From contig WQRP01000100.1 of NCBI GenBank assembly GCA_009786675.1, forward strand, positions 1 through 6,084: a stretch of 6,084 bases of DNA, read 5' to 3'. Under the pieces are notes generated by a model that worked only from the letters and a program-made list of their open reading frames with translations, was not told the origin of the DNA and did not search any database. The translations under genes were made by a program, and so were the position numbers. The stretch is from Treponema sp. Lineage in GTDB: Bacteria > Spirochaetota > Spirochaetia > Treponematales > Breznakiellaceae. This document shows, in pieces, positions 1,554 to 6,084 of this stretch (position 1 is the stretch's first letter; every line of letters starts with the position of its first letter).

Positions 1554-1958
1554 CTACTCGCCCATTACGCGGACGTGGACTTTCCGCGTCCTGGGGCCGT
1601 CGTACTCGTTGAACCATATTCCCTGCCAGGTTCCAAGCAGCGGCCTTCCGTCCGTGACAATCAGCGTCAGCGAGGCCCCAACAAGGCTGGACTTTACGTG
1701 CGCCGCCGAGTTGCCCTCGCCGTGGCGGAACTCGCGCCTGTCCGGGGAAATCATGTCCAGGGCAAGGCCGGCGTCGCGGGGCACGTCCGGATCCGCGTTC
1801 TCGTTTACCGTGACGGCCGCCGTGGTGTGCGGGGTGAATACCACGCACAGCCCCTCCCGCACGCCGGAATCGGAAACGGCCTTTCGCACCTGGCCGGTGA
1901 CGTCGATCCAGTCTGTCCGGCCGCCGGTGCGGACCGTGAACTCCGAAAGGGACACCAT
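1554..1958 (-). CDS. yjbQ: YjbQ/UPF0047 family protein (secondary thiamine-phosphate synthase-like)
   Basis: The protein has 134 residues, close to the usual length of the YjbQ/UPF0047 family, small single-domain proteins that form trimers. Family hallmarks are clear: FTPHTTAAVTVNENADPDV (41-59), HGEGNSAAHVKSSLVG (79-94) and LGTWQGIWFNEYDGPR (108-123). The conserved His, Glu and Asn residues in these blocks form the presumed active or metal-binding site. E. coli YjbQ has a weak thiamine-phosphate synthase activity, but the physiological role of the family is not settled. The ATG lies two bases after the stop codon of the hydrogenase-chemoreceptor gene. Only a weak GGGTG-like Shine-Dalgarno element precedes it, so the gene is probably co-transcribed and translationally coupled. 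Its stop is four bases from the priA stop on the other strand. The family call is firm; the function here is open. Confidence 0.93.
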   Translation of the reverse strand: MVSLSEFTVRTGGRTDWIDVTGQVRKAVSDSGVREGLCVVFTPHTTAAVTVNENADPDVPRDAGLALDMISPDRREFRHGEGNSAAHVKSSLVGASLTLIVTDGRPLLGTWQGIWFNEYDGPRTRKVHVRVMGE

Positions 1959-1960
1959 GG

Positions 1961-4039
1961 CTACACCCGCGCCTGCACGGCCATGATTTCCATTTCCTCT
2001 TTTAGCCGGTTTATGTTTTCGATGATCTCGTTGTAGCCTTCCTTGACGGCATCGCTGTGGGTGTAGACCTCCCGCATCGCCGAGGTTATCACCGAGCCCT
2101 CCGCCGAAAGATTGTTCAGGGTGTTGATAAAATTCGTCATGGCCACGGCAAACCCGTCGATGTACCTGGACATACCGTCGATAAGCTCGCTGGTGCCGCC
2201 GGAGCGCCTCGACGTAATGTTAATCCCCTCGATAATGTTCGACAGGGTCTGGGATATGCTCCGCGAATTTTCCCTGGTGGTCTCGGACAGCCTGCGTATC
2301 TCGTCGGCGACCACCGCGAACCCGCGCCCGGCCTCCCCCGCGTGGGCCGCCTCTATGGCGGCGTTCATCGCCAGAAGGTTGGTGTTGGAGGCAATGGCCG
2401 AGATGATCTTGATCGCCGACGCTATGCCGTCAACCGACTGCGAGATGTCGTTTACCGACCTGGTGGTCTCCAGCATGGATTCCTTCCCCTTGGCGGCGCT
2501 GTCGATAAGTCCCTGTATGGAATCCTGTTCCCGACGCGCCAGATCCGACGTGCTCAGCAAGGCCTCCCTCATGCCCTCCGCGACCTGGGAGCCACGGCTC
2601 ATTCCCTCCAGGTGCTCGTCCAGGCGATCGAGAAGCTGCTGCGTCATGCCCTGCATTCCGCCGAGCATGGAAACGGCCTTGTTAATCTGCTCGTTAAGCT
2701 GCCGGCGAATCTCCTCCCTTGTCTCCTCCACGACCAGGGCGTTGTAATGGGTGCAGTGCTCCGGCTTGTTAAGCCCGTTGAAAATCGCGACGGCCATCGA
2801 CTTGCATTTCATGTAGCCGCACGCCGTGCAGTCGTATATGTCGTCCGGGGAGTATTTCTTGAGCGTGCGGTATACGTCGTTCAGCTGGTTCTCGGTCGGC
2901 TGCACGATGGCGAAATTGCCGGACATGTCCCTGTACTCCCTTTTGTACAGGCCGGGCCTCCAGTACCTGCCCAGAACCTCGTGGTATTTTTTAAGCGCCT
3001 TTGCCGGGTTCCTCGGGCCGTCCGCGCCGACGGTTTCCTCCAGCCTGGCCATGCGCTTGCGGATGGGGCTTTCCAGCTCGTCCAGCGGCACGTCGTCGTT
3101 TCCGGTGCCCGGGCCGCCGTTGCAGCCCTTCTCGCAGTTCAGGCAGTCGATCAGCAGCGGGAATTTCATCCCCGGCGAGTTGATGAGCCTTGCGACGTCG
3201 TCAAGGTAAGGATAGACGGCATGTATCCCCTCTATTTTCCGGGTCTGCCGCCTGATGCCCGGAACGAACCTTTCGATTGTGTCCAGAAGCCCGCCGGGGG
3301 AGGAAAAGCCGGCGGCCCTTTCCGCCGCCACGCCCTCGTATTCCACGGCGGGAAACGAGTCCAAATCGATCTTGTTCGTGGCCAGGTATTTCTTAAGAAG
3401 AACCATGGTAACGTTGTATTCCCCAAGCCCGGTCTCGTCGAACTCCATCCGTTTCGCGACGCAGGGGGAAACCACCGCGATCTTGTGATCCCGGTACTGG
3501 GGATAGTACTCGCGAATCATTTTAATGGTATGCAGCATCGGGCTGTCCACCGGGGCAAGGAAGGGGATAAGCTCGGGCCGGTAGATTTCGATGTACGTTA
3601 CAATCGCGGGGCAGGGTTGGGCAATCACCATGCTGGGCTTTTTCTTTTCTATGTAGTCCAGGTAGGACAAAATCGTAAGCTCCGCGCCGAAGCTTACGTC
3701 GAACACCGTGTCCACGCCTACCGACTTTAGGTAGCCGTTCAGGCGCAGGTATGTATCAGGGAAACAGGCGACTATGGCGGGGGCGACTATGGCGACCATC
3801 TTGTCGCCCCGCCGCAAGTCGCTGAAAAAATGCGGCGTGTCGTCCACCGGCAGCCTGGCGCCATGGCTGCACACGTGTATGCAGTGCCCGCAGCCCAGGC
3901 AAAGGTCGTGGTTAATAAGAAGTTTTTCCTTGGAGCCGTCCGTACAGTACTTAACCGGGCAGGCAGTAATACACGCATGGCAGTTTATGCACTTTTGCTC
4001 GTCAACTTTGACACACGCCGTGAGCGCCGCTTTTCCCAT
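1961..4039 (-). CDS. [FeFe]-hydrogenase-like sensor fused to a methyl-accepting chemotaxis signalling domain
   Basis: The protein has 692 residues. Seen in order: a two-cluster ferredoxin module (Cys 17, 20, 23, 27 and 47, 50, 53, 57); an [FeFe]-hydrogenase large-subunit domain (about 80-360) with H-cluster motifs at AQPCP (140-144), SPCVAK (191-196) and [13 protein letters not shown] (299-311); a further 4Fe-4S domain with Cys 404, 407, 412 and 429; and a chemoreceptor hairpin (about 446-692) whose tip carries [14 protein letters not shown] (552-565) and [18 protein letters not shown] (567-584). The likely H-cluster ligands Cys143, 193, 302 and 306 are kept. The catalytic-motif positions usually Cys (before Cys143) and Met (two residues before Cys193) are Pro142 and Ser191. 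No membrane segment, HAMP domain or C-terminal CheR-binding pentapeptide is present, so it should be cytoplasmic. I infer H2 or redox sensing passed to CheA/CheW. The start ATG has a good Shine-Dalgarno element six bases upstream, and the ferredoxin module begins almost at once. It heads an operon with yjbQ. The domain calls are strong; the sensory role is inferred. Confidence 0.95.
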
Positions 4040-5960: not shown

Positions 5961-5990
5961 TTTAGCCCCGCGAAAAATTCCCGGGCTAAA
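5961..5990. repeat. Inverted repeat across the chemoreceptor stop codon
   Basis: TTTAGCCC (5961-5968) and GGGCTAAA (5983-5990) form a perfect 8-bp stem with a 14-base loop that includes the stop codon at 5986-5988. A competing stem, CGCGGG (5951-5956) with CCCGCG (5967-5972), overlaps it. No U-run follows either on the - strand, so neither looks like a complete terminator by itself. Confidence 0.45.
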
Positions 5991-6084
5991 CGCCCAGCTT
6001 AGCGGCCGCCTCGACAATCTGCCGAGCGTCCTCCTTTACCTGCCCGGTGATGTCGTTCACCTGCGCTATCGCCTGCATTATCTG
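5986..6084 (-). CDS. C-terminal end of a probable methyl-accepting chemotaxis protein, cut by window edge
   Basis: The last 32 codons of a frame enter from the right edge: QIMQAIAQVNDITGQVKE, then DARQIVEAAAKLGV and TAG. The pattern I-x3-I-x2-V-x2-I-T-x2-V in a helical, charged stretch is typical of the descending arm of chemoreceptor signalling domains, especially treponemal ones. Those usually carry on past this point, so this copy may have a short C-terminus. With only 32 residues the family call is tentative, and an unrelated coiled coil is possible. It lies upstream of comF on the same strand. Confidence 0.5.
   Translation of the reverse strand, partial: QIMQAIAQVNDITGQVKEDARQIVEAAAKLGV

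Follow-up and report, generated by a model that had tools for sequence, protein, structure and literature searches.

A cytosolic spirochaete chemoreceptor with a putative [FeFe]-hydrogenase-type sensory domain occurs in hosts with and without H-cluster maturases

HydDB (2016) lists [FeFe]-hydrogenase group C2 as 'chemotactic (putative)', with H2 possibly sensed by way of methyl-accepting chemotaxis proteins (MCPs) (PMC5037454), and the same description is repeated in PMC9431212. According to the available text of PMC8163306, groups C and D have lost the C299 cysteine and the proton path, carry a C-terminal Cx2Cx4Cx16C motif, and retain an activity that is low but real. The window considered here is a 6,084-nucleotide stretch of Treponema sp. 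contig WQRP01000100.1 (assembly GCA_009786675.1), and it contains a gene for a 692-residue protein, hereafter the receptor, whose chemotaxis output domain is exactly as C2 describes, the MCPsignal domain lying in the same chain as the hydrogenase-like domain. This kind of receptor is already on record as group C2, where H2 sensing is putative; the initial annotation, which was made from the letters of the window, had allowed that the architecture might be known. The likeness to C2 is drawn from the HydDB description, the available text of which includes no maturase test. The receptor is interpreted here, with a probability of roughly 0.5, as a cytosolic chemoreceptor of the C2 kind with an [FeFe]-hydrogenase-type sensory input, in which an H2 or redox signal would steer CheA.

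The initial annotation had described a single frame holding a two-cluster ferredoxin module, an H-domain, a [4Fe-4S] domain and a chemoreceptor hairpin, with no membrane segment, and Pfam, Kyte-Doolittle hydropathy and the homologues all agree (Table 1). The domain searches that it proposed each matched (PF02906, PF04060 and MCPsignal), the last (PF00015) at residues 513–678 with E 1.6e-28, and no PAS or HAMP domain is present among the Pfam matches up to E 1. The highest 19-residue Kyte-Doolittle mean is only 1.5, and thus there is no clear membrane segment; together with the MCP hairpin in Pfam and in the AlphaFold model, this is the arrangement of a cytosolic chemoreceptor. The model has a mean predicted local distance difference test score (pLDDT) of 67.8 and a confident H-domain, and its best 50 fold matches in the PDB are [FeFe]-hydrogenases or complexes containing one (template modelling score about 0.4 by query length). 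Two helices, residues 430–566 and 574–691, are modelled on either side of the hairpin turn, the first beginning adjacent to C429, the last cluster ligand, and the tip residues around the turn are conserved in a 25-row alignment of relatives. Residues 514–631 have pLDDT below 50, so that the shape of the hairpin rests more on family knowledge than on the model. The canonical methylation motif of the receptor arms has no matches in the receptor, and none in 58 of 76 fusion proteins versus 5 of 17 control MCPs, the controls having been scanned over their whole length.

A database search yielded 7,728 homologues below E 0.001 among 7,997 scored candidates. The best 120 of these are 56–100% identical to the receptor; these include P0004, which is the window itself read as a shorter protein, and the best other homologue, P0001, is 99% identical. 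PF02906 and PF00015 occur together in all 120, so that neither chance nor an assembly join can account for the fusion. In addition, a scan of genome contigs detected at least 585 relatives, and among the 80 loci kept, the two domains share one open frame in 40, as read from the DNA; records of these one-frame loci are named Spirochaetes, Chitinispirillaceae, Ignavibacteriae, Planctomycetaceae, Verrucomicrobia, Bacteroidota and Desulfobotulus, among others. An artificial joining of two separate genes, which the initial annotation had raised as grounds for withdrawing its proposal, is therefore rejected; nothing was found in its favour and its probability is negligible. The receptor gene is confirmed as a real and common spirochaete protein in which a hydrogenase-like Fe-S sensor is joined to a chemotaxis receptor. 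Some relatives depart from the basic form. Three 809-residue homologues (P0054, P0080 and P0099) contain a receiver domain (PF00072) besides the fusion, located after the hairpin in P0054 and P0080, and at locus L119 of genome G014 the receptor gene is interrupted by in-frame stops. Genomes G030 and G056 carry the fusion and have 8 and 5 PF02906 matches, respectively.

The cluster ligands are strongly conserved. All 16 cluster cysteines, comprising eight in the ferredoxin module (invariant in the 25-row alignment), four for the cubane and four in the C-terminal domain, are kept among 75 fusion proteins, the only departures being L117, L119 and L124, rows that are cut or broken. The cubane cysteines C143, C193, C302 and C306 are present in every readable row, as expected of a C2 H-domain, and the C-terminal ligands at 404, 407, 412 and 429 form the Cx2Cx4Cx16C pattern of sensory groups C and D. 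Alignment with group-A proteins places P142 at the position of the proton-relay cysteine (C299), and proline occupies this position in 71 of 74 readable fusion proteins; there are no counterparts of the proton-path glutamates, S191 and L300 take the place of the two pocket methionines, and K196 is kept. Loss of the relay cysteine, a trait shared with the putatively sensory groups C and D, bears out the sensory-type assignment made at the outset. The lysine is kept in 38 of 38 readable proteins from hosts lacking the H-cluster maturases HydE, HydF and HydG, and in 35 of 36 from hosts with a maturase. In group-A enzymes the cysteine and glutamates serve the proton path and the lysine contacts a diiron cyanide, roles and numbering here following those of CpI. 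The NCBIfam group-A and group-B1 models match the receptor far below cut-off. Within the H-domain, a 12-base word is repeated 15 bases apart at window positions 3768–3797, a tandem duplication. P0001 lacks five residues at this place, and thus slippage may have occurred in one or other assembly; other relatives in the 25-row alignment have residues there.

Host gene content was surveyed across a single spirochaete order in 193 genomes, for which a completeness of 85% had been requested. A receptor-profile match is present in 104, of which 88, with 101 loci, were judged from the match ranges to hold the full-length fusion; the 16 with partial or other matches were excluded, leaving a fusion-free comparison set of 89. 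CheA is found in 87 of 88 fusion genomes and 73 of 89 fusion-free genomes (Fisher p 1.4e-4), and in all 16 further fusion genomes, which were hand-picked from the genome-contig scan and belong to several phyla and other spirochaetes. Signalling through CheA was part of the initial proposal, and a chemotaxis output is well supported. Maturases were called from matches over curated cut-offs, which identified HydG in 72, HydF in 82 and HydE in 77 of the 193 genomes. At least one occurs in 49 of 88 fusion genomes and 29 of 89 fusion-free genomes (p 0.0024), a contrast that weakens to 49 of 88 versus 40 of 105 (p 0.02) if the 16 partial-match genomes are counted as non-fusion. The window's clade, defined as the 21 fusion genomes with the highest-scoring receptors, has at least one maturase in 16 and all three in 11, compared with at least one in 33 of the 67 other fusion genomes (p 0.04). 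The 16 further genomes include HydF in 14 and HydG in 12, and HydF is commoner among them than among the fusion genomes of the surveyed order (44/88, p 0.006); the wider family thus seems to go with H-cluster assembly, with the mismatch strongest in the sampled order.

Several results weigh against the proposed reading. The 88 fusion genomes have all three maturases in 35 cases, two in 8, one in 6 and none in 39; the initial annotation had asked if every genome with the fusion encodes HydEFG and had itself taken its absence from a host as refuting its proposal, and with 39 such hosts H2 sensing at an H-cluster is not supported as a general rule. A recheck with a single HydG protein found matches in none of five maturase-free genomes, four of them fusion hosts, and in all five maturase-bearing genomes, one being the source of the query. 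Near-identical pairs of differing maturase status (e.g. G170/G147) suggest that some absences are draft-genome gaps; such gaps cannot explain them all, because three maturase-free hosts have the receptor on contigs as long as 4,646,109, 3,431,497 and 2,731,853 bases. The ligand cysteines are kept in maturase-free hosts as in maturase-bearing hosts (39 and 36 receptors, with G082 left out and only the longest matching piece of L119 counted), and their conservation therefore does not prove a diiron site. Mean pocket entropy is close between the two groups, with the maturase-free group having the higher value in 5 of 7 stretches, and for the pocket alone 89 of 500 label shuffles gave a difference as large. 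Other conserved stretches are slightly less variable without maturases, and relative to them the pocket is slightly more variable (0.146 bits, 1 of 500 shuffles, in 74 rows and with shuffles that ignore kinship), a weak indication that part of the diiron constraint has been lost. Inspection by eye of ten loci (four from the genome-contig scan and six from surveyed genomes, taking the first 60–70 residues of each frame) revealed no recognisable hydrogenase or maturase gene next to the receptor. Finally, the C-terminal cluster of a characterised group D enzyme is described in the available text of PMC13104023 as not reduced under H2, a result that makes it less likely that electrons are simply relayed into the helix. 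Two further ideas were rejected: a conserved operon of the receptor with a hydrogenase or maturase gene, none having been recognised in the ten loci, and a tie between variability at position 308 and maturase absence, for which independent tree pairs show no association.

Maturase status is scattered but also clustered on the receptor tree (75 rows, including G082, which has two maturases, and leaving out L119). Parsimony requires 19 changes, at least 16 of them on supported branches, compared with 25 under shuffled labels, and 3 of 500 shuffles are as low. The receptor is not alone in occurring without HydEFG: a group-A-type H-domain match (best E <1e-80) is present in 133 genomes of the order, and 58 of these also lack HydE, HydF and HydG (e.g. 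G073, G161 and G167). Motifs in 20 of these 58 read much like those of 20 maturase-bearing controls: the two-cysteine L1 form occurs in 12 versus 12, TSCSPxW in 8 versus 8, L2 in 20 versus 20 and L3 in 17 versus 16. Further group-A-type frames in G161, G073, G092 and G011 comprise three with TSCCPxW and one with TSCSPGW. Nothing on point for hydrogenase hosts without HydEFG was found in the open-licence papers searched. It may tentatively be suggested that many treponemes keep an H-domain chemoreceptor complete in its cluster ligands, and often group-A genes with intact motifs, without HydE, HydF or HydG by virtue of either a conserved diiron-free redox function or an unrecognised route to the H-cluster. 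A recurring pair of further PF02906 genes, 3–4 kb apart and coding for about 490–545 and 583–612 residues, is present in G011, G015 and G016.

Hosts without maturases imply either a diiron-free redox receptor or an unknown maturation. A receptor that is diiron-free throughout would hold only the [4Fe-4S] cubane in its H-domain and would read ferredoxin/NADH redox state or oxidative stress instead of H2. The 39 maturase-free hosts argue for it, as do the lack of any group-A-type hydrogenase gene in 16 of them, ligands that are kept with or without maturases, the prevalence of proline at the proton-relay position, and the slight relative loosening of the pocket, itself gauged by shuffles blind to kinship; retention of the diiron-cyanide lysine in both groups, HydF in 14 of the 16 further fusion genomes and the enrichment of maturases in fusion genomes argue the other way, and on balance it is a possible but doubtful account. 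If the receptor instead sensed H2 everywhere, the treponemes without HydEFG would need an unrecognised maturation route. The many group-A-type genomes in the same position, with motifs so like those of controls, favour such a route, but no candidate alternative maturase came up, although no search aimed at one was made; a cubane ligand may be missing from the eight TSCSPxW proteins, but equally many occur among the controls, so the motif does not discriminate. This explanation is improbable. Least likely of the functional alternatives is a low-turnover hydrogenase tethered to the receptor array and not acting as a sensor: H2 turnover by an H-domain with a ferredoxin module is conceivable in principle, consistent with the activity described for groups C and D (PMC8163306), but the group-A proton path is replaced, and the helix directly following the last cluster ligand suits signalling, so that this role is very unlikely.

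Under the preferred interpretation of a cytosolic chemoreceptor with H2 or redox input, electrons would arrive from H2 at the H-cluster, in hosts that make one, or from reduced ferredoxin-like donors, and would alter the H-domain and its chain of clusters in redox or ligand state. From there the signal could pass through the Cx2Cx4Cx16C cluster domain, whose last ligand C429 stands where the receptor helix begins, and so reach the CheA-controlling hairpin. For hosts with HydEFG, probably including that of the window, H2 would be the likeliest stimulus, while relatives lacking maturases would use the same protein as a reporter of redox state alone. H2 sensing at the H-cluster, as initially annotated, accordingly stands as plausible for the window's clade, where 16 of 21 genomes keep a maturase, but is unlikely as a family-wide input in every host, given the 39 of 88 without HydE, HydF or HydG. 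We infer the cofactor content, the stimulus, the signal path and the direction of the swimming response, alongside an architecture, ligand conservation and co-occurrence with CheA that are directly observed.

Table 1. Features of the receptor gene and its neighbour in the window
Feature	Coordinates	Strand	Basis or remark
Receptor gene (soluble H-domain chemoreceptor, 692 aa)	1961..4039	-	ATG-initiated single open reading frame, Pfam and homologues
Two-cluster ferredoxin module, N-terminal, residues 10–61	3857..4012	-	Pfam Fer4 repeats; Cys 17, 20, 23, 27 and 47, 50, 53, 57
H-domain Fe_hyd_lg_C (PF02906), residues 80–310	3110..3802	-	Pfam E 3.6e-29; confident predicted fold; PDB [FeFe]-hydrogenase matches
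C143, first cubane ligand	3611..3613	-	Alignment with group-A proteins and conservation; P142 precedes
C193, second cubane ligand, motif SPCVAK (S191, K196)	3461..3463	-	Alignment and conservation
C302 to C306, third and fourth cubane ligands, motif CLNCEKGC	3122..3136	-	Alignment and conservation
C-terminal [4Fe-4S] domain FeS (PF04060), residues 402–430	2750..2836	-	Pfam 25.0 bits (cut-off 23)
Chemoreceptor coiled hairpin, residues 430–691	1967..2752	-	Predicted secondary structure (514–631 low confidence) and MCPsignal match
Hairpin turn, residues 567–573	2321..2341	-	AlphaFold model
YjbQ/UPF0047 gene	1554..1958	-	Starts 2 bases past the receptor stop codon

The YjbQ/UPF0047 gene that follows the receptor is perhaps coupled to it in translation; it was not recognised as a neighbour in the ten other loci read by eye. 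At L048, a relative with 59% identity, CheB- and CheR-like genes, also identified by eye, are convergent to the receptor (L048:8117-10086). The opposite end of the window (about 5985–6084, minus strand) contains the C-terminal end of another protein, which resembles an MCP tail by eye, no family search having been made.

As a stand-alone gene found almost only alongside CheA, the receptor makes a case in which H2 or redox taxis can be tested. The maturase mismatch means that sequence alone does not suffice to call an H-domain an H2 sensor, even one that retains its ligands, and this has consequences for how sensory [FeFe]-hydrogenases from gut metagenomes are annotated; a comparison of maturase-bearing and maturase-free relatives would tell if signalling needs the diiron site. 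In termite-gut treponemes, Ballor, Paulsen and Leadbetter reportedly described in 2012 hydrogen sensor/transducer proteins possibly involved in chemotaxis, a study that is not known to have included maturase-free hosts. Energy-taxis receptors such as Aer and TlpD report redox or energy state to CheA, with a flavin-bound PAS domain as the input of Aer; the receptor is likewise proposed to report redox state to CheA, although the input modules are unrelated. The archaeon Methanococcus maripaludis swims toward H2 (Brileya et al. 2013, cited in PMC4266047), and H2 taxis therefore exists as a behaviour. Like the taxis proposed here, it is that of an anaerobe, but one from a different domain of life, and its receptor is not named in the available text of PMC4266047.

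Among the characterised sensory enzymes, as described in the available text of PMC8163306 and PMC13104023, TamHydS (group D, Thermoanaerobacter mathranii) shares with the receptor the absence of PAS and the same pocket substitutions, M353 to Ser and M497 to Leu (PMC8163306), which correspond to S191 and L300. A hydroxyl residue at position 353 and no PAS are the marks of group D (M2e), and in its pocket residues S191 and L300 the receptor resembles the group D enzyme. However, TamHydS has neither PAS nor a receptor output domain, whereas the receptor has proline at position 299 and an extra MCP domain, and no claim is made that it belongs in group D. TmHydS (group C, Thermotoga maritima; PMC8163306, PMC13104023) shares the two N-terminal clusters, the H-domain without C299 and the Cx2Cx4Cx16C cluster; its C-terminal cluster is followed by a PAS domain, in the place where the receptor has its chemoreceptor helix.
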